From: Halobacteriales archaeon QH_10_67_13
GTDB taxonomy: Archaea; Halobacteriota; Halobacteria; Halobacteriales; Haloarculaceae
Direction: 5' to 3'
Assembly: GCA_003021335.1 (NCBI GenBank)
Contig: PXQL01000096.1
Span: 1-14,440 of the forward strand
Length of the DNA stretch: 14,440 bases
Each line of letters opens with the position of its first letter. Position 1 is the stretch's first letter. The notes beneath the pieces are model-generated. The model was given only the letters and a program-made list of their open reading frames with translations. It searched no databases and had not been told where the DNA came from. Both the position numbers and the translations under genes were made by a program. Shown here piece after piece: positions 2,617 through 14,440 of the stretch.

Positions 2617-3005
2617 CCGGAACGGATCCACTGGCCAACGCGCTCTCGGCGATCGATAACGCCGGAGACGTCGGTCATCTGACCGAGCGGGTACGGCCCG
2701 CCTCGAACGAGATCGGCAGCGTGCTCAGAGTCCTGTACGACCGGGGCTACATCGACGGGTTCCAGCGCGTCGAAGAGGGCACCGCCGAGGAGTTCGAGGT
2801 CGAACTGAAAGGAGCGATCAACGACTGTGGTCCGGTCAAACCCCGGTACGCCGCGGGCGCGGACGGGTTCGAGAAGTGGGAAAAACGGTACCTCCCGGCT
2901 CGAGACTACGGCACGCTCGTGGTGACGACCTCGGATGGCATCATGACCCACTACGAGGCCCGCGACCGGGGGATCGGCGGTCAAGTGATCGCGTACGTCT
3001 ACTAA
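2613..3005 (+). CDS. rps8: 30S ribosomal protein S8 (uS8)
   Basis: This 130-residue primary 16S-binding protein contacts helix 21. It starts [17 protein letters not shown], the conserved N-terminal helix. [22 protein letters not shown] follows at about residues 29-50, then the archaeal insert with [20 protein letters not shown]. The conserved C-terminal RNA-binding region ends with [20 protein letters not shown]. The ATG at 2613 gives the standard archaeal length; the open frame further upstream is the antiparallel or shifted shadow of rps14. Two bases separate it from rpl6. Confidence 0.96.
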
Positions 3006-3007
3006 CG

Positions 3008-3544
3008 ATGTCACGAGAAACAGTTCAGATACCGGAAGACGTCGACGCTCGGACCGACCACCTCGACCTGGTCGTCGAGGGGCCCAACGGGTCGGTGACC
3101 CGGCGGCTGTGGTACCCCGACGTCTCGGTCGCAGTCGAGGACGGCGCGGTCGTCATCGAGAGCGACGCGGAAGACGCACAGACGCTGTCGACGATGGGAA
3201 CCTTCCACAGCCACGTCGAGAACGCCTTTTATGGCGTGACCGAGGGCTGGGAGTACGAGATGGAGGTGTTTTACTCACACTTCCCGATGGACGTGTCCGT
3301 CGAAGACGGCGCGGTCGTCATCGAGAACTTCCTCGGCGAGCGCGCCCCCAGGCGCACCGAGATCCACGGCGACACCGAGGTCGAGGTTGACGGCGAGACG
3401 GTCGTCTTGCGCGGCCCTGACATCGAGGATGTCGGGCAGACAGCCGCAGACATCGAGCAGCTGACCCAGGTCACCGACAAGGACGTCCGGGTCTTCCAGG
3501 ACGGCGTGTACGTGACCGAGACGCCACAGGGAGGTGACGCCTGA
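3008..3544 (+). CDS. rpl6: 50S ribosomal protein L6 (uL6)
   Basis: This 178-residue large-subunit protein lies near the factor-binding site. It contains two tandem copies of the L6 fold. The first holds [25 protein letters not shown] and the second begins around [21 protein letters not shown]. The linking region has the conserved [23 protein letters not shown]. The C-terminal [17 protein letters not shown] is the family signature that contacts 23S rRNA. Acidic residues dominate the surface segments, as expected for a halophile. The start ATG at 3008 follows the rps8 stop by 2 nt. The TGA at 3542-3544 shares one base with the rpl32e ATG. Confidence 0.95.
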
Positions 3545-4590
3545 TGAGCGACGACGATCACGAACAGGACCAACAGACAGACGAGACCGAGGAGCACCGA
3601 GAGACGGACAGCCTGACCGAGATCGGCGGCGTCGACGAGGAGACCGCCGAACAACTCCGCGCGGCCGGGTACGAGAGCCCGGGGCATCTGAGCGCGGCCA
3701 ACCAGGAGCAGCTCGCCGCCGTCGACGGGGGGAGCACCGCGCTGGCCGCCCGGATCAAGGCCGAAACCGATGCCCTCGAGGTCGACGAGGAGATCGAAAG
3801 CGAGGTCGACGAGTTCGGCACGGACTCAGAAGAGTCGGAAGAAGACGCAGACGGGAGCGCGGGATCGGCCGAGGCAGACGAGACGGGCAAGACAGACGAT
3901 ACCCCCGAGATCACGGAGCTCACCGACATCAGCGGCGTCGGCGAGGCAAAAGCCGAAGGGCTCCGCGAGGCCGGCTACGCGACCGTCGACCAGGTCCGGG
4001 GCGCCGATCAGGACGAACTCGCTGACGTCGACGGCGTCGGGATGGCACTGGCCGCCCGGATCAAGGCCGACGTCGGCGACGTTGAGATCACAGAGGAAGT
4101 CGAAGCCGAAGTCGAAGAGGAGGAAGAACCCGAAGAGGAAGAAGACCTCGAGACGGAGCTCCGGCCCCGCGGGCTGGTCGAGAAGACCCCGGACCTGGAC
4201 GAGGAGACAGAGCGGCTGCTCGCACAGCGCCGGGCCGTCGAGAACCCCTCCTTCGAGCGCCAGGACCATCATAAGAAAAAGCGTATTCCGAGCTCCTGGC
4301 GTCGGCTCCGCGGCGACCGCTCGAAGCGCCGCCGCGGGGTCAAGGGCAAGGGCGCGGACGTCGACCCCGGCTACCCCTCGCCCGAGGCCGTGCGAGGACT
4401 GCACCCCTCCGGATTCGAGGAGGTGCGGGTCCACCGCCCGGCGGATCTCGACGGCGTCGATGGCGACCGGCAGGCAGTCCGGATCGCCGCCTCGGTGGGC
4501 GCGCGAAAGCGCGAACGCATCGAGGAGCAAGCCGAGGACGCCGGCATCCGGGTTCTCAACCCCACCTACGAGGAGGTGGTGGTCGAATGA
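3544..4590 (+). CDS. rpl32e: 50S ribosomal protein L32e (eL32) with duplicated helix-hairpin-helix extension
   Basis: This is a 348-residue large-subunit protein. The conserved L32e core is about residues 202-348, with [39 protein letters not shown] and [18 protein letters not shown]. The N-terminal extension normal in haloarchaea holds one helix-hairpin-helix unit, and from memory their total length is about 240 residues. Here there are two units: residues 24-88 ([15 protein letters not shown]... ALAARIKAE) and 126-190 ([15 protein letters not shown]... ALAARIKAD). They are separated by an acidic low-complexity linker (89-125). A second acidic run (190-200) leads into the core. A Shine-Dalgarno GGGAGGTGA at 3529-3537 precedes the ATG, and the gene overlaps rpl19e by 4 nt. 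Confidence 0.95.
3613..4113 (+). repeat. Tandem in-frame duplication inside rpl32e
   Basis: Two diverged copies, 3613-3807 and 3919-4113, are offset by 306 nt (102 codons). They encode matching helix-hairpin-helix units. Both contain an identical 23-nt stretch encoding LAARIKA plus flanking bases, at 3742-3764 and 4048-4070. The second copy looks closer to the single unit of other haloarchaea ([26 protein letters not shown]), so the first may be the extra one. That order is inference. Confidence 0.85.
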
Positions 4591-5036
4591 CCGACCTGAG
4601 CGCACAGAAGCGGCTGGCCGCGGACGTGCTCGGCGTCGGCGAGAACCGGATCTGGCTCGACCCCGAGCAACAGGGCGACATTGCCGAGGCGATCACCCGC
4701 GAAGACATCCGGGAGCTGGTCGAGGAAGGCGTCGTCCGGGCCGAAGAGCCGGGCGGCAACTCCCGGAGCCGGGCCCGCGAGCGCGAAGCAAAACGCGCCT
4801 ACGGCCACCAGAAAGGCGCCGGCAGTCGAAAGGGCGAGGCCGAGGCCCGTAAGAGTGACACCGACGACTGGGCGTCAACGATCCGAGCACAGCGACGGCG
4901 ACTGCGCGAGCTCCGCGACGAGGGGCGGCTCAGTCGCTCGCAGTACCGCGACGTCTACGACAAAGCCGGCGGCGGCGAGTTCGACAGCGTCGCGGACCTC
5001 GAACGGTACATCGACGAAACTTACGGTGATACATAA
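4587..5036 (+). CDS. rpl19e: 50S ribosomal protein L19e (eL19)
   Basis: This 149-residue archaeal/eukaryotic large-subunit protein is mostly helical and rich in Arg/Lys in the centre. The N-terminus [24 protein letters not shown] is diagnostic. Next comes the helix [16 protein letters not shown], then a basic stretch ([25 protein letters not shown]) that penetrates rRNA. The C-terminal [20 protein letters not shown] follows. AGGAGGTG at 4571-4578 is the ribosome binding site. The start overlaps the rpl32e stop (ATGA), and the TAA at 5034-5036 shares one base with the rpl18 ATG. Confidence 0.96.
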
Positions 5037-5590
5037 TGGCAACCGGACCACGATACACAGTTCCGATGCGGCGACGCCGCGAGGCCCGAACCGATTATCA
5101 TCAGCGGTTGCGCCTGTTGAAATCCGGCAAACCACGCCTGGTTGCTCGCAAGGGCAACAACAGCGTCAGGGCGCAGCTGGTCGTTACTGGGCCGCTCGGC
5201 GACGAGACCGTCGCGAGCGCACACTCGACAGATCTCCGCGAACACGGCTGGGAGGCCCCGACCGGGAACCTCCCGGCGGCGTACCTGACCGGTCTGCTCG
5301 CCGGACAGCGCGCGATCGAGGGCGGGTTCGAAGAGGCGGTGCTCGACATCGGGCTGAACTCCCCGACCCCGGGGAGCAAGGTGTTTGCAGTACAGGAAGG
5401 TGCAATCGACGCGGGTCTCGAGATCCCGCACAACGACGAGGTCCTCGCGGACTGGTCGCGGACGCGCGGCGAGCACATCGCCGACTACGCCGAGCAGGAG
5501 GACGGGCTCTACGCCGGCGCGTTCGACGCGACGGAGCTGCCCGCGCACTTCGACGAGATCCGCGAGCGGCTGCTTGGAGGTGACCAATGA
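5036..5590 (+). CDS. rpl18: 50S ribosomal protein L18 (uL18)
   Basis: This 184-residue 5S rRNA-binding protein works with L5 in the central protuberance. It opens [20 protein letters not shown], a basic N-terminal arm, followed by [18 protein letters not shown], the conserved archaeal/eukaryotic motif. Further blocks are [20 protein letters not shown] and [19 protein letters not shown] (about residues 119-137). Length agrees with haloarchaeal L18. The final 4 nt overlap the rps5 start (ATGA). Confidence 0.96.
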
Positions 5591-6222
5591 GCGCAGAGGA
5601 GGGCTGGGTCCCACAGACCCGGCTCGGCAAGCAGGTCGCCAACGGTGACATCGAGACCATGGAAGAGGCGCTGGCCACCGGGCTCCCGCTCAAGGAGCCC
5701 GAGCTGGTCGACCAGCTCGTCCCCGGGCTCGAAGACGAGGTGCTCGATATCAACATGGTCCAGCGGATGACCGACTCGGGACGCCGGGTGAAGTTCCGGT
5801 GTGTAGTCGTGGTCGGCAACCGCGACGGACTGATCGGGTACGCGGAGGGCCGCGACGACCAGGTCGGCGGCGCGATCGAGAAGGCAATCGACATCGCGAA
5901 GCTGAACCTGATCACGGTACCGCTCGGGAGCGGCTCCTGGGAGGACCGCCCCGGGGGCACCCACTCGCTGATCCGGGACGCCGAGGGCAAGGCCGGCAGC
6001 GTCGTCGTCCATGTGATGCCCGCCCCGAAGGGCCTCGGCCTGGCGGCCGGGGAGACCCCACAGAACGTACTCGAACTCGCCGGCGTCGAGGACGCCTGGA
6101 CCGAGAGTCACGGCAACACCCGAACAACGGTCAACCTCGCGAAGGCGACGTTCAACGCCCTGGAAAACGCCGCCGAGGCGCGGGTCCCCCAGCGAGTCCG
6201 GGAACGAGAGGTCGAACGATGA
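5587..6222 (+). CDS. rps5: 30S ribosomal protein S5 (uS5)
   Basis: This 211-residue small-subunit protein is involved in decoding fidelity and the mRNA entry channel. The archaeal N-terminal region ([20 protein letters not shown]) precedes the double-stranded RNA-binding-like S5 domain, with [20 protein letters not shown] at about residues 68-87. The C-terminal domain shows [17 protein letters not shown] and [18 protein letters not shown], both conserved. A good Shine-Dalgarno, GGAGGTGA, lies at about 5576-5583. The TGA overlaps the rpl30 ATG by 4 nt. Confidence 0.96.
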
Positions 6223-6680
6223 GAGCGCTCGTCCAGTTGCGCGGTGAGGTCAACATCAACCAGGACGTGCTCGACACCCTCGAGATGCTCAACCTCGGGC
6301 GGGTCAACCACGCCACCTTTATTCCTGAAGAGCCCACGTACAAGGGAATGGTGACGAAAGTAAACGACTACGTCGCGCACGGCCGACCCAGCGAGGCGAC
6401 CGTCGCGATGCTACTCAAGCGCCGCGGCGAGACCGCAGACGGCGAGACCGTCACCGACGCACTGGTCGCCGAGGCGACCGACTACGCCGACGTCGACGAG
6501 CTGGCGGCGGCGCTCGTCGCCGAGGAGACGACCCTGCAGGACGCGGGCCTGTCGCCGACGCTGCGCCTGCATCCGCCCCGTGGCGGCCACGACGGGATCA
6601 AACAGCCCGCCACGACCGGCGGGCAGCTTGGTGTCCACGAACCCGAGGCGATCGACGACCTCCTGGGGGCGATGCGATAA
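6219..6680 (+). CDS. rpl30: 50S ribosomal protein L30 (uL30)
   Basis: This 153-residue protein is the long archaeal/eukaryotic L30/L7 form. It starts [20 protein letters not shown], followed by [25 protein letters not shown], the family core. The C-terminal half carries the archaeal extension with [20 protein letters not shown]. The start is the ATG in the ATGA overlap with rps5; the longer open frame upstream is a shadow of rps5. It ends with a TAA that shares one base with the rpl15 ATG. Confidence 0.95.
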
Positions 6681-7150
6681 TGACAGACAAGAGCAAACGA
6701 CAGCGCGGATCGCGCACCCACGGCGGCGGCTCGCAGAAAAACCGGCGCGGTGCCGGCCACCGCGGCGGCCGCGGTGCCGCGGGCAGAGACAAACACGAAC
6801 ACCACAACCACCCGCCGCTCGGAAAACACGGGTTCGACCGGCCGGAAGCCGTAACGGACGACGTCGCGACCGTCGAGCTGCGCAAGCTCGACGAAGACGC
6901 GCCGCTACTGGTCGCTGACGGGCTCGCCGAGGAGACCGAGGCGGGGTATCGGATCGACGCCCGCGAACTGATCGACGAGCCCGTCGACCGGATCAAGGTC
7001 CTCGGTGGGGGCCAGGTGCGACGTGAACTCACCGTCGTCGCCGACGCCTTCTCCGAGAGCGCCCGCGAGCGACTCGCCGCGGCCGGCGGCGAGGCCGTCG
7101 CGGCCGAGACGGACTCGGAGCCGGAGACAGAACCAACTACGGACGCGTAA
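6680..7150 (+). CDS. rpl15: 50S ribosomal protein L15 (uL15)
   Basis: This is a 156-residue large-subunit assembly protein. Residues 1-50 form the Gly/Arg/His-rich arm (RGSRTHGGGSQKNRRGAGH, then HEHHNHPPLGKHGF) that threads through 23S rRNA. The globular domain includes IDARELIDEPVDRIKVLGGG and VVADAFSESARERLAAAGG, the conserved C-terminal signature. The tail (ETDSEPETEPTTDA) is acidic. It is the last ribosomal protein gene before secY and, unlike the others, is separated from its downstream neighbour by 30 nt. Confidence 0.95.
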   Translation: MTDKSKRQRGSRTHGGGSQKNRRGAGHRGGRGAAGRDKHEHHNHPPLGKHGFDRPEAVTDDVATVELRKLDEDAPLLVADGLAEETEAGYRIDARELIDEPVDRIKVLGGGQVRRELTVVADAFSESARERLAAAGGEAVAAETDSEPETEPTTDA

Positions 7151-7180: not shown

Positions 7181-8537
7181 ATGAGCTGGAAAGACACCGC
7201 GGAACCGGTACTCACGCGGATGCCGTCGGTCAGGCGGCCCCAGGGACACGTGCCCTTTCGGCGGAAGCTGGGCTGGACGGCCGGCATCCTCGTGTTGTAC
7301 TTTTTCCTGACGAACGTCACCCTCTATGGACTCGGCACCGAGTCGGACGTGTTCGGCCAGTTCCGCTCGATCCTGGCCGGCGCCTCGGGCTCGCTGATGC
7401 AGGTCGGCATCGGGCCGATCGTCACCGCAAGCATCGTCTTGCAGCTGCTCGGCGGGGCGGACCTGCTCGGACTCGACACCCAGAACAACCCCCGTGATCA
7501 GGTGCTCTACCAGGGCCTGCAGAAGTTACTCGTGGTGATCGTGACCGCGATGACCGCCTTCCCGATGGTGTTTGCGGGCTTTCTCAATCCCGACACGACA
7601 CTCGGGATTGCGCCGGGGCTACTCGAGTGGATCCTGTTCGCGCAGGTGTTCGTCGGGGGGATCCTCATCCTGTACATGGACGAGGTGGTCAGCAAGTGGG
7701 GCGTCGGGAGCGGTGTCGGACTGTTCATCATCGCCGGCGTGAGCCAGCGGCTGGTCGGCGGGCTGGTCGCGACCCCGACCTTCGGCGGCGACTGGGGCAT
7801 CTTCCCACAGTGGGGCCGAATGCTGCTCGGGGCCGGCGAACAGACCCTCAATCTTGAGCTGCTGTTGATCGGCGAGGGCCAGCGCCCGCGTAAAAGGCGC
7901 CCGCGGACGGTTCCCGGTGAAGCTCATCTACGCCAGCGTCCTGCCGATGATCCTCGTGCGGGCGCTCCAGATGAATATCCAGTTCATGGGCCGAATCTTG
8001 AACCGCCAGCTCGGCGACGCGATGCCGGCGATCCTGGGCCAGTACGCCGAGGGCCAGCCCACCGGCGGGCTGTTCTACTACCTGGCGCCGATCCAGAGCC
8101 CCCAGGACTGGATGTTTTTCATCAACGAGGGCGGGGCGAACACGCCCCTTGAGATCATGACCCGCGTGTCGATCGACCTGACGATCATGGTCGTCGGCGG
8201 GGCGATCTTCGCGATCTTCTGGGTCAAGACCACGAACATGGGCCCAGCCGCGACCGCCCAGCAGATCCACGGCTCGGGTATGCAGATCCCCGGATTCCGG
8301 CAGAACGTAAGGAGCATCGAGCGGGTGCTCGACCAGTACATCCCGCAGGTGACCGTCATCGGCGGCGCCCTGGTCGGCCTGCTCGCCGTCGCGGCGAACA
8401 TGCTCGGCACGATCGGCGGAGTCACCGGGACCGGGCTGCTGCTGACGGTCTCGATTACCTACAAGCTCTACGAGGAGATCGCAGAAGAACAGCTCATGGA
8501 GATGCACCCGATGATGCGGCAAATGTTCGGCAGCTGA
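7181..8537 (+). pseudogene. secY: Preprotein translocase SecY, frame broken by an internal deletion (or sequence error)
   Basis: SecY is the pore subunit of the Sec translocon. The first frame (7181 to about 7882, 234 residues) shows the haloarchaeal N-terminus MSWKDTAEPVLTRMP, TM1 (about 33-51), the plug/TM2 region with MQVGIGPIVTASIVLQLLGG (73-92) and TM3-TM5 ending GVGSGVGLFIIAGVSQRLVGG. At GEGQ the frame changes. The second frame resumes with ARVKGARGRFPVKLIYASV (from 7884) and continues through TM7-TM10 to the normal end EEQLMEMHPMMRQMFGS. The expected TM6 and the following RVEIPLSH loop, about 28 residues, are missing. The net loss must be 2 modulo 3, for example 83 or 86 nt. Left alone, frame one reads on to a stop at 8152 with an Arg-rich aberrant tail. 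Confidence 0.88.
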
Positions 8538-8563
8538 TACCGAACATCTGAACGATGTTCGGC
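8523..8563 (+). repeat. Three-armed inverted/direct repeat at the end of secY
   Basis: ATGTTCGG (8523-8530, inside secY), CCGAACATC (8540-8548) and GATGTTCGG (8554-8562) can pair in two mutually exclusive ways. Arms 2 and 3 form a perfect 9-bp stem with a 5-nt loop just after the TGA. Arms 1 and 2 form an 8-bp stem enclosing the stop. ATGTTCGGC occurs as a direct repeat at 8523 and 8555. It could be a 3'-end or processing structure. There is no strong U tract immediately after it. Confidence 0.7.
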
Positions 8564-8638
8564 TGACATCTACCGTCTCTTGTATCTAATTCTCGGATTC
8601 AAATCTGTTATTCAGTGTATTCTGACAACAGGATCCCC

Positions 8639-8667
8639 CTATACTCGGTATAGCAAAAATTAATATA
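8639..8667 (+). promoter_or_regulatory. Palindrome with adjacent TATA-like A/T run
   Basis: CTATAC-TCG-GTATAG (8639-8653) is a perfect 6-bp inverted repeat. It is followed at once by AAAAATTAATATA (8655-8667), which resembles an archaeal TATA element. It might be an operator/promoter pair for a long leader of the downstream cassette or a small RNA. This is suggestive only. Confidence 0.3.
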
Positions 8668-8893
8668 GACTGATCAAGAACGGCATATCGGTCTGACCGT
8701 AAGATGCGGTCCAATTAGACAGAGGGCGCCAACAAACGATTGGATGGGGCAGGCGATCCGGAGTCTAATCATCTACTGTTCACACCAATCCATTCCACGC
8801 ACTCCCGGGTAGGTAGGTTCAATTACGAGCCCCCAAGACGGTTACATGCGGGGTCCGGAATACCGTTGTCTGCGCCGGTCTGTGTGTAAGCCT

Positions 8894-8933
8894 CCTGTGA
8901 ACACAGGGTTGAGACACACGAGCATGGGTGTCT
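8894..8933 (+). repeat. Two inverted repeats upstream of the amidohydrolase gene
   Basis: CCTGTG-AA-CACAGG (8894-8907) is a 6-bp perfect palindrome with a 2-nt centre. AGACAC...GTGTCT (8912-8917 and 8928-8933) has 6-bp arms and a 10-nt loop. Both lie just upstream of the TATA-like element at 8941-8948, a position suited to regulator binding. Confidence 0.4.
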
Positions 8934-8940
8934 ACCGCAG

Positions 8941-8948
8941 AATAAATT
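8941..8948 (+). promoter_or_regulatory. Candidate TATA element of the three-gene cassette
   Basis: AATAAATT is A/T-only and lies about 40 nt before the ATG at 8989. Archaeal TATA elements are centred about 27 nt before the transcript start, so transcription would begin near 8970, with a short leader and no Shine-Dalgarno. No convincing BRE was seen. Confidence 0.35.
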
Positions 8949-8988
8949 CTTGCAAAAGATTGATACTGTCGAACAGGCTTGTCCGGAC

Positions 8989-10125
8989 ATGGGAACGGTT
9001 GACAAGGGTAAAAAAGTCAGATCGCTCGGTGACGTTGATACTGTTATCGATGCGGATGCTCATGTAATGGAGTCCGTGGATCAGATCGTTCCGTATATCG
9101 ATCATAAACACTCTGCAGTAGCCGATTTGGTTTCTCGAACACCGATTCCCACGAACAGCGTGTATCAGCTTGAGATTCAAGGACCGTATTTACCTGACAA
9201 CTACGATATTGGTAGTGATGCATTCGACGAGGATAACGCCGGATCAGCGTACGGACCCGAAGAGAAGCTCTTAGAGATGGAGGAGTTCGGGATTGATTAT
9301 TCAATTGTCAGTCCAACACTTAACCTGCTGTTGCCGACAGTAAAAAACGACCGTATCGCTGTTGCGCTTGCAAACGGGTACAATTCCTGGCTTGTCGATA
9401 ACATTCTTGATGCACACCAGGGGATCAAGGCAAATTTACTCGTTCCTCCACAGGATCCGACAGCCGGGGCAGAAGAGATTGAGCGTCTCGCTGATGAGGA
9501 CGATATCGTTGGTGTTGCCCTTCCGTCGACGGGGCTCGCCCCCCTCCCAGGGCACAAGTTCTACGACCCGATTTACCAAGCCGCGCAAGATTACGGACTG
9601 CCGGTCTGTCTCCATGGTTCTGCCGGGCAGACGAGCGAACAGTTCCCGCTTGTTAACAAATGGATCGAGACATACGCCGAAGGACATACCGTGTCACATC
9701 CACTGACCGCGATTTCAAACGTGACAAATATGATCTTCCAGGGGCTTCCAGAACGGTTTCCGGACTTAGAATACCTTATTCAAGAAGCGGGTATTGGGTG
9801 GGTCCCGTACTTGAAATGGCGATTAGACGATCATTACTTGGAGCGCCCATACGAGCTACCGCTGCTCGATCGGGCTCCGAGCGAGTACTTCGAAGAGCAG
9901 TTCTACATCGGAACACAGCGGCTGGGTCATCCCCCACGACCGCAGGCGATGGCAAAGATGGTCCAACTTGTTGGGCCCAGCTCGATTATGTTTTCAGCTG
10001 ATCTCCCACACTTTGATTTTGATCCGCCCGAGGAGTTATTTAATCCGATTCGTGGCTCTTTGAACGCGGGTGAGATCCAAGCGGTCATGGGCAATAACGC
10101 AAGAGAGGTGTTTGGATTCGAATGA
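8989..10125 (+). CDS. Metal-dependent hydrolase/decarboxylase, amidohydrolase-2 family (ACMSD-like)
   Basis: This 378-residue TIM-barrel enzyme belongs to the family of aminocarboxymuconate semialdehyde decarboxylase and resorcylate decarboxylases. Visible motifs are VIDADAHVME at residues 19-28 (first metal-ligand motif), LPVCLHGSAG around H209, HTVSHP with H237, EAGIGWVPYLKWRLDDHY at 266-283, and FSADLPHFDFDPPEE with the expected catalytic/metal Asp at D338. The substrate cannot be told; the family includes C-C decarboxylases and hydrolases. I chose the ATG at 8989. A TTG at 8950 would add 13 residues but overlaps the TATA-like element. GC is much lower than in the ribosomal genes, with many A/T-ending codons, yet the protein is acidic and looks halophilic. 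It overlaps the Rieske gene by 4 nt. Confidence 0.85.
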   Translation: MGTVDKGKKVRSLGDVDTVIDADAHVMESVDQIVPYIDHKHSAVADLVSRTPIPTNSVYQLEIQGPYLPDNYDIGSDAFDEDNAGSAYGPEEKLLEMEEFGIDYSIVSPTLNLLLPTVKNDRIAVALANGYNSWLVDNILDAHQGIKANLLVPPQDPTAGAEEIERLADEDDIVGVALPSTGLAPLPGHKFYDPIYQAAQDYGLPVCLHGSAGQTSEQFPLVNKWIETYAEGHTVSHPLTAISNVTNMIFQGLPERFPDLEYLIQEAGIGWVPYLKWRLDDHYLERPYELPLLDRAPSEYFEEQFYIGTQRLGHPPRPQAMAKMVQLVGPSSIMFSADLPHFDFDPPEELFNPIRGSLNAGEIQAVMGNNAREVFGFE

Positions 10126-10490
10126 GCGGACGTAAGCGTCACCAAGTCGCTACGTCCGAGGAGCTGGACGATGCATCAAGGGTGATCGCTGACATCCGGG
10201 GGCGGGAGATTGCTGTGTTTTCTTACGACGGGGAGTACTATGCAGTCGCCAATCACTGTATTCACCAAGCGGGGCCGCTGTGCGAAGGAGAGCTGCAGGC
10301 GACCCGGGAGTTTTCAACCGGCGAAGATGGGTGGGAATGGAGACAACAAGAGAAAAAGCAGGTTATTGTTTGTCCATGGCACGCGTGGCGGTTCGATATT
10401 ACCACCGGAGAAAGCGTTGACGACGATCGCTACGCCGTCCCAACATACGAGACGGAAGTCGAGGACGGGCAGGTGTTTGTCATCGCATGA
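10122..10490 (+). CDS. Rieske [2Fe-2S] domain protein
   Basis: This 122-residue single-domain protein carries the Rieske cluster motifs C46-I-H48 and C84-P-W-H87. The first is within NHCIHQAGPLCEGEL and the second within IVCPWHAWRFDITTGE. Two Cys and two His would bind a [2Fe-2S] cluster for electron transfer. The ligand boxes are about 35 residues apart, where ferredoxin-type Rieske proteins usually have about 15-20. The insert (about 60-80) is polar and Trp/Glu-rich. No membrane anchor or oxygenase catalytic domain is present, so it is a soluble carrier or subunit, not a dioxygenase. Its ATG overlaps the amidohydrolase stop (ATGA), with GAGAGGTG at 10103-10110 as a possible ribosome binding site. 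Co-translation suggests a shared pathway or complex. Confidence 0.88.
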   Translation: MSGRKRHQVATSEELDDASRVIADIRGREIAVFSYDGEYYAVANHCIHQAGPLCEGELQATREFSTGEDGWEWRQQEKKQVIVCPWHAWRFDITTGESVDDDRYAVPTYETEVEDGQVFVIA

Positions 10491-10521
10491 GTTTAGCCGT
10501 CTGCGGGCCACATTCTGAGCG

Positions 10522-10923
10522 ATGAACGGTAAAGAGACACCGCCTCGAAGCGCTTCCCTTCCGGCAGGATACGACGAGACGGACCCGTACGAAGGTGAGG
10601 AACTATCCGCGTATCCAGACTGGTGGCAGGCCAACATTGCGGAATTTCGGGAGTTCGGGATGCGTCCTTACCTCCCACCGCGGTTCGTTGACGGAGCGGC
10701 CGTACCGGAACTCATCAGTACGTTGGAAGCTGAACTCGGCGTCAAAATCGAACTGCGTGCCGTGGATCCATCGGTGACAGATGATTGGACAGTTCGGGTT
10801 AATAAGACCGCTGTCACGGAGATAGAGCGTAATCGTACCCCGAGTGGTCGAACGGAATACATGTTGAATAGCACCGAATTTGAGAGGATAATTCGTCACG
10901 CCGTGTCGGAGGAGAAAGTTTGA
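10522..10923 (+). CDS. Small uncharacterised protein of the amidohydrolase-Rieske cassette
   Basis: This encodes 133 residues; I do not recognise a named family. It follows the Rieske gene by 31 nt on the same strand and shares its lower GC, so it is probably the third gene of the operon. No signal peptide, membrane span or cysteine is present. Residues 15-55 are aromatic and proline rich (YPDWWQANIAEFREFGMRPY, then LPPRFVDG). About 58-120 look like a small alpha/beta domain: VPELISTLEAELGVKIELRA, DDWTVRVNKTAVTEI, then a strand-rich TEYMLNSTEFERII. The alternating hydrophobic pattern and reasonable codon choice argue that it is real. It could be a small subunit or accessory factor of the enzyme; that is inference from position only. 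Confidence 0.7.
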   Translation: MNGKETPPRSASLPAGYDETDPYEGEELSAYPDWWQANIAEFREFGMRPYLPPRFVDGAAVPELISTLEAELGVKIELRAVDPSVTDDWTVRVNKTAVTEIERNRTPSGRTEYMLNSTEFERIIRHAVSEEKV

Positions 10924-11120
10924 TTCGATGTAAACTTCTCGTGGTGTTTGTTATCACTGAGACACACTGACCCGGGCTAACAACAGTAGATCTCACGTAC
11001 GACGCCATGCTGGCTTTCGTCGTCTCTGATCAGTATAAAAACACACGGAGGAATTGTTAAAGGATCATAGCGACCGGAAGTCTCAGGTCGTCGTCGGGAC
11101 ACGGCAGTCCGTGACCGGTT
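10924..11120. other. Convergent intergenic region
   Basis: This 197-nt stretch lies between the 3' ends of the small island gene and the ABC operon. It holds one copy of TGAGACACAC (10958-10967), the TATAAAAA/TTTTTATA element (11034-11041) and a weak CACGG-CAGT-CCGTG hairpin near 11099-11112. GC rises towards the transporter. No gene is supported. Confidence 0.6.
11034..11041 (-). terminator. T-rich tract downstream of the ABC operon
   Basis: On the minus strand the sequence reads TTTTTATA within GTGTGTTTTTATACTG, about 80 nt after the stop of the last transporter gene. Archaeal RNA polymerase commonly terminates at such U tracts. The same bases could act as a TATA element on either strand, so the call is tentative. 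Confidence 0.35.
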
Positions 11121-13721: not shown

Positions 13722-14440
13722 TTACTCGAAGTACTCGCTGACCAGGTCGTCGTAGGTGCCGTCCTCCTGGATCTCAGTCAGCGCATCGTTGATATCGCCG
13801 ACCCGGTCGTCACCATCTCGGAGGCCCAGCCCGTACCGCTCGCCGGTCTCGAACACGAACGCCACCCGGACCGGCCGGTCTCCGGCGAACGTCTCGGCGA
13901 CGGGGGTGTCGACGACGACGGCGTCGACGTTGCCGCTCTCGAGATCGTTGACCGCGAACACGTAGTTCCCGTAGGACCGCGCGGCATCGCCGTCGATCAG
14001 ACCCGGGCTCACGAGCTCCTCCTCGACGGTGACCTCGCCGGTCGTCCCGGACTGCGCCCCGACCGGCCGCCCCTCAAGATCCGCGAACTCTGCGGGGTCG
14101 ATGTCGTCCTCCCGGACCAGGACCGCCTGGTCGGCCTCATAATATGGGTCCGTGAAGTCGATCTGCTCGTCGCGGTCGTCGGTGATGGTCATCGCGGCGG
14201 CGATGAGATCGATGTCACCCTCGGTGAGCGACGGGATCAGCGAGTCGAACTCGATGTCGACCCAGTCGCCGGCCTCGTAGCCGGCCCGCTCGATCGCGTC
14301 GACCGCGAGGTCAACGTCGAAGCCGACGAGTTCGTTTGTCTCCTCCTCGATGTACTCAAAAGGGGCGAACCCCGAGGAGGTTCCGGGCACGATCGTCTCC
14401 GTGTCGCCGTCGCCGGTGCAGCCGGCGAGGCCGACGGCCG
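13722..14440 (-). CDS. Polar amino acid ABC transporter substrate-binding lipoprotein (5' end beyond window)
   Basis: The frame is open to the window edge. Its first visible residues are AVGLAGCTGDGDTE, with a lipobox LAGC whose Cys (codon 14418-14420) would carry the lipid anchor on the outer face of the membrane. The mature protein belongs to the family 3 solute-binding proteins (SBP_bac_3). It shows SSGFAPFEYIEEETNELVGFDVDL, then AAAMTITDDRDEQIDFTDPY with the Arg that usually binds the ligand carboxylate, then QSGTTGE and VDAVVVDTPVAE. It ends EIQEDGTYDDLVSEYFE, the normal family C-terminus. An internal GTG at 14390 is not the true start, because the lipobox lies upstream. Exact amino acid specificity cannot be read. 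Confidence 0.93.
   Translation of the reverse strand, partial: AVGLAGCTGDGDTETIVPGTSSGFAPFEYIEEETNELVGFDVDLAVDAIERAGYEAGDWVDIEFDSLIPSLTEGDIDLIAAAMTITDDRDEQIDFTDPYYEADQAVLVREDDIDPAEFADLEGRPVGAQSGTTGEVTVEEELVSPGLIDGDAARSYGNYVFAVNDLESGNVDAVVVDTPVAETFAGDRPVRVAFVFETGERYGLGLRDGDDRVGDINDALTEIQEDGTYDDLVSEYFE

Follow-up and report, generated by a model that had tools for sequence, protein, structure and literature searches.

The broken secY of a draft haloarchaeal genome is very probably a scaffold joint and not a loss of TM6

The core of the protein channel has two essential components, SecY and SecE, according to a review (PMC2910488). Literature searches on SecY TM6 or split SecY, on haloarchaeal secY and on assembly frameshifts returned nothing specific beyond this review in the portions of the sources that were available. 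For draft genomes, the available portions of two methods papers deal with gap sizes: an assembler paper points out that gap estimates need correction, as pairs spanning a gap must exceed the gap length (PMC3158087), and a gap-filling paper mentions gaps of negative size and gaps predicted too short (PMC3504050).

Here we analysed a secY that appears broken in the window, by which we mean the whole 14,440-nt stretch of DNA under study. The window belongs to a contig of 17,294 bases and is directly followed by 239 N (14441–14679), up to which an amino-acid ABC transporter binding-protein ORF on the minus strand (13722–14390 and on) runs. The window itself contains no non-ACGT letters, and the secY joint carries no N. 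Judging the genes by eye, we take the window to include the end of a haloarchaeal ribosomal protein operon, with secY behind it, and the ORF directly before secY (6680–7150) is presumably L15. On this reading, the gene occupies its customary position downstream of genes for ribosomal proteins.

The secY gene is split at 7882/7883 into two halves that lie in different frames. The left half (7181..7882, plus strand; 234 codons, 234 aa) runs from an ATG at 7181 to a CAG at 7880–7882, ends in GEGQ and carries the plug domain and the TM1–5 region. It matches Pfam PF00344 at positions 1–119 with 90.8 bits (cut-off 32.2), scores above the cut-off for the PF10559 plug domain and is aligned from residue 1 by 15 of 15 congeners with secY. 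Conserved secY sequence restarts with ARVKGARGRFPVKL at 7884, in a frame other than that of the left half. This right half (7884..8537, plus strand) opens with GCC (A) and CGC GTA AAA GGC (RVKG), spans ARVKGARG, the rest of the 6/7 loop and TM7–10, closes with a TGA stop at 8535–8537, and matches PF00344 at positions 164–306 with 107.4 bits against the same cut-off of 32.2. Either half alone scores above the SecY/Sec61-alpha family cut-off; the assembled gene does not form a single continuous frame with ten TM segments, being in two frames with the TM6 region absent. The first-pass annotation had described a secY split in two frames, with a GEGQ end at 7882 and a restart at 7884, and both the coordinates and the Pfam matches on the two halves agree with it. 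Two mechanical ORFs in the ORF list overlap the break: a frame of 323 aa (7181..8152, plus strand) consisting of the left half and an out-of-frame tail, from which no gene product is expected, and a frame of 206 aa (7917..8537, plus strand) with a putative internal GTG start in the right half.

The size of the loss was measured against relatives, as the first-pass annotation had proposed. The genus set comprised 17 further genomes, of which 15 carry secY and two (G013 and G014) gave no match. Each of the 15 yielded a full-length secY match, and the missing stretch is present in the proteins of all of them. The distance from Q234 to RVKG, spanning the joint at 7882..7884 (plus strand), is 4 nt in the window versus 87 nt by tblastn in eight of the 15 congeners, namely those whose left-half alignment reaches Q, which gives a loss of 83 nt. 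In the other seven, the alignment breaks off earlier, within the variable loop that precedes TM6, which gives a crude difference of 98–122 nt. A loss of 83 nt is 27 codons plus 2 nt, or 2 mod 3, in keeping with the earlier frame arithmetic of 2 mod 3 and 83–86 nt. Beyond the genus, the stretch was absent from none of 80 loci in named haloarchaeal genomes (13 of them on contigs already included in the genus set); 79 of the 80 are single-frame, and the exception, L087, shifts frame in another part of the gene. All 140 other family genomes with secY gave a full-length match without stops, and five further genomes gave no match. When the whole SecY of a congener was compared with Methanocaldococcus jannaschii 1rhz, the missing stretch aligned to a hydrophobic segment and the residues next to it. 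By the TM numbering of 1rhz, we take these to be TM6 and the first part of the 6/7 loop. Alignment to relatives agrees with the first annotation that about 28 residues, the TM6 segment among them, are absent from the assembled secY.

Two explanations that look to the DNA at the joint itself were rejected. A 9-nt direct repeat, GCGCCCGCG, lies at 7882–7890 and 7897–7905 (plus strand); it had been recorded at these positions, correctly, and credited with a possible role in slippage, which does not hold. A deletion between direct repeats would retain a single copy. In the window, both copies persist at or to the right of the joint, offset by 15 nt, with the missing stretch to their left, so that the repeat does not explain the loss and slippage is rejected; a flanking repeat reduced to one copy, the hallmark of such a deletion, is not what is found. 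By the relatives' codons, the edges of the lost stretch share at most one base (C, 7883). Seven of the nine bases of the first copy and all of the second are conserved, native ARVKGARG codons, and the first copy is complete only through the joint. The repeat is incidental to the secY break. Unusual cross-species conservation of the lost stretch likewise failed as a cause in a windowed conservation and shared k-mer test, the stretch ranking 502nd among 1381 windows for the genus and 682nd among 1381 for the wider set.

The source assembly is a draft of 1.49 Mb in 116 contigs and is 52.1% complete. From it we drew a sample of 20 contigs, with no more than 20 kb taken from any one (240,345 bases), together with 230,000 bases from congener G003 and 237,469 bases from congener G008. 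The own-genome sample contains 13 N runs, ranging from 1 to 239 in length, versus one single N in G003 and none in G008; such irregular lengths are as expected for scaffold gaps with estimated sizes. Four of the 13 runs were measured, and all four are undersized, by 23 to 180 nt. A MatE gene with 1 N is short by 137 nt and a PolX gene with 25 N by 61 nt (7/7 relatives each), and a second MatE gene with 37 N is short by 180 nt (5/5 relatives). An ABC ATPase gene with 74 N is short by 23 nt, as judged from 2/2 distant homologues that are 38–47% identical, one of them in the same genome. Gap sizes in this assembly are thus underestimated wherever they were measured.

Genes broken in the manner of secY were also sought in the three samples. 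A first frame-break scan returned 74, 64 and 84 candidates (G000, G003 and G008, respectively), was affected by antisense-frame noise and was superseded by a competitive frame-switch scan. The latter gave 11 candidates in 270 gene-like frames of the own genome, four in 234 of G003 and one in 224 of G008, and it picked up the secY break unprompted. Pfam matches and tblastn against relatives identify seven of the 11 own candidates as breaks within one gene: secY, an MFS gene (L119), a gene with no Pfam match (L101), a DUF7286 gene broken twice (L104), a MatE gene (L111) and a PolX gene (L118). Five of these seven breaks carry no N, one carries a single N and one carries 25 N. Three further candidates (L103, L118 at 17278 and L100 at 16085) were discarded as ordinary neighbour genes, and the remaining one (L109 at 3964) was placed in neither class. 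In G003, three of the four candidates have halves in different families and the fourth (L125) was placed in neither class. The sole candidate in G008 (L133, 6403–8306) is an AidB/acyl-CoA dehydrogenase-like gene with an apparent frame change near 6811, without a large loss. Breaks of this kind are thus rare in the two congeners, which are nonetheless not break-free.

The four N-less breaks other than secY lie in unrelated genes and are of similar size to the secY loss. The L101 gene lacks 95 nt near 3168, according to 5/5 relatives. The MFS gene lacks sequence near 1679, amounting to 94 nt by two of the four relatives with both halves and 73 nt by the other two; the 94-nt relatives align up to the joint, the second match of the 73-nt relatives starts later, and one relative has no second match. 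The DUF7286 gene (2937–5771) lacks about 125 nt near 4370 and about 112 nt near 3443, both measured against one distant relative of 38–60% identity.

Given a draft genome with undersized N gaps and with further N-less losses of like size, we read the secY break as a scaffold joint. We are highly confident that it is an assembly artefact, in which two scaffold pieces, separated in reality by a gap of about 83 nt inside an intact secY, ended up joined end to end with no N between them. The gap between the two pieces inside secY would have been underestimated or falsely closed; an estimate at zero or below would lead to closure without N, and the true length would be lost. The secY joint would then belong to a class of N-less, undersized gaps of the same genome, and we infer that the same joining step made it and the other joints. 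Among the points against an artefact are that the measured N gaps fall short by very different amounts, from 23 to 180 nt, that the secY joint itself is unmarked by N, that the conservation test gave no reason for contigs to end there, and that one congener sample also has a frame change inside a gene. Nevertheless, an assembly deletion, which the first-pass annotation had offered as the first of three causes, gains strong support from the undersized N gaps and the other N-less losses, and the heading of that annotation, which has TM6 lost from secY, finds no support as a statement on biology. The organism's own secY is most likely intact and ordinary.

The two halves were also compared with those of relatives for signs of function or decay. 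The ratio of third-position to first-plus-second-position differences against the 15 relatives was 1.11–1.66 for the left half and 1.06–2.15 for the right; in 105 relative-to-relative pairs, the same ratio was 0.98–4.12 (left) and 1.10–6.00 (right). By this measure, both halves resemble working genes; the test is weak, since the relatives' own branches account for much of each distance. An artefact predicts such a functional-gene pattern, which an old pseudogene would not show, and a real deletion would therefore have to be recent. Identities of the left and right halves to the 15 relatives correlate at only 0.68, which is no proof that both halves come from one strain.

Of the competing explanations, the one that survives best, improbable as we judge it, is that the deletion is real in some or all of the sampled cells and that an intact second secY lies in the unassembled half of the genome. 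On this view, a living Halovenus would only very recently have lost TM6 and the reading frame from its chromosomal secY, and a second, unassembled secY would handle protein export; we likewise give this picture a very low probability. A real deletion would make this a haloarchaeon in which another copy has taken over from the secY of the ribosomal operon. The assembly lacks about half of the genome, and a second copy is not without precedent: at least six of the 140 other family genomes carry two full-length secY (G026, G031, G038, G047, G053 and G104), two more have a second match, and two Haloferax plasmids in a plasmid collection carry secY (48% of the query covered). Within the genus, however, 14 of the 15 genomes have one secY match, and the extra match in G005 is a near-identical end repeat. 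A real deletion would also fail to account for the sequence missing from unrelated genes elsewhere in this genome, and neither half shows decay in its codon-position patterns. The first-pass annotation had called for a search of the rest of the genome for a second secY; a family search of the assembled genome, 52.1% complete, found only the two halves. A 36-aa congener piece with TM6 matched nothing elsewhere in this assembly, in a search run without a positive control.

Less probable still is an origin of the deletion, at low coverage, in a chimeric read or in the library, as opposed to scaffolding. Such an event would likewise leave neither N nor a repeat at the joint, but the undersized N gaps elsewhere in this assembly implicate scaffolding; which technical step failed makes no change to the verdict of an artefact. 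We give almost no credence to a functional SecY assembled from two polypeptides, for although both halves have open frames and SecY consists of two pseudosymmetric halves, TM 1–5 and 6–10, according to the review (PMC2910488), TM6 itself is removed, which is more than a linker, the first start codon of the right half is the internal GTG at 7917, and a split gene is the sole copy in none of the 140 other family genomes with secY.

Downstream of secY, the composition of the window changes. Right after the gene, G+C drops from about 65% to 48–55% over positions 8501–11000, a stretch that includes an amidohydrolase (8950–10125) and a Rieske protein (10122–10490) and an ORF without Pfam match (10522–10923). 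This low-G+C stretch may be acquired DNA. In five draft congeners (L008, L012, L013, L014 and L016), the contig ends about 160–1040 nt past secY, where the window turns low in G+C.

Two other broken-looking secY genes were encountered among the relatives. In the uncultured archaeon A07HN63, a metagenome assembly (KI543216.1; L087, 2591–2614), the frame of secY changes between query residues 137 and 140. In Halovenus salina (G005:C1; NZ_CP112972.1; L018, L007 and L042), both ends of the chromosome record share a 3.77-kb stretch with 3771/3772 identities, which looks like an untrimmed circular overlap, and a one-base gap in this end repeat breaks the second secY. Both cases are small frame changes, in contrast to the 83-nt loss in the window.

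Compared with archaeal SecY (PF00344; solved structures 1rhz, 3mp7), both halves in the window are ordinary haloarchaeal SecY. A congener's whole SecY matches 1rhz over its full length, including the stretch missing here, and the assembled gene differs from it in lacking TM6 with the first part of the 6/7 loop and in changing frame. Compared with scaffolded drafts that have undersized or negative gaps, this genome shows the same features, with sequence lost between neighbouring contigs, short N runs and breaks across unrelated genes. It differs in that some joints carry no N at all and hence look like true deletions; because these joints mimic deletions in conserved genes, claims of gene loss or pseudogenes drawn from this draft genome are unsafe.
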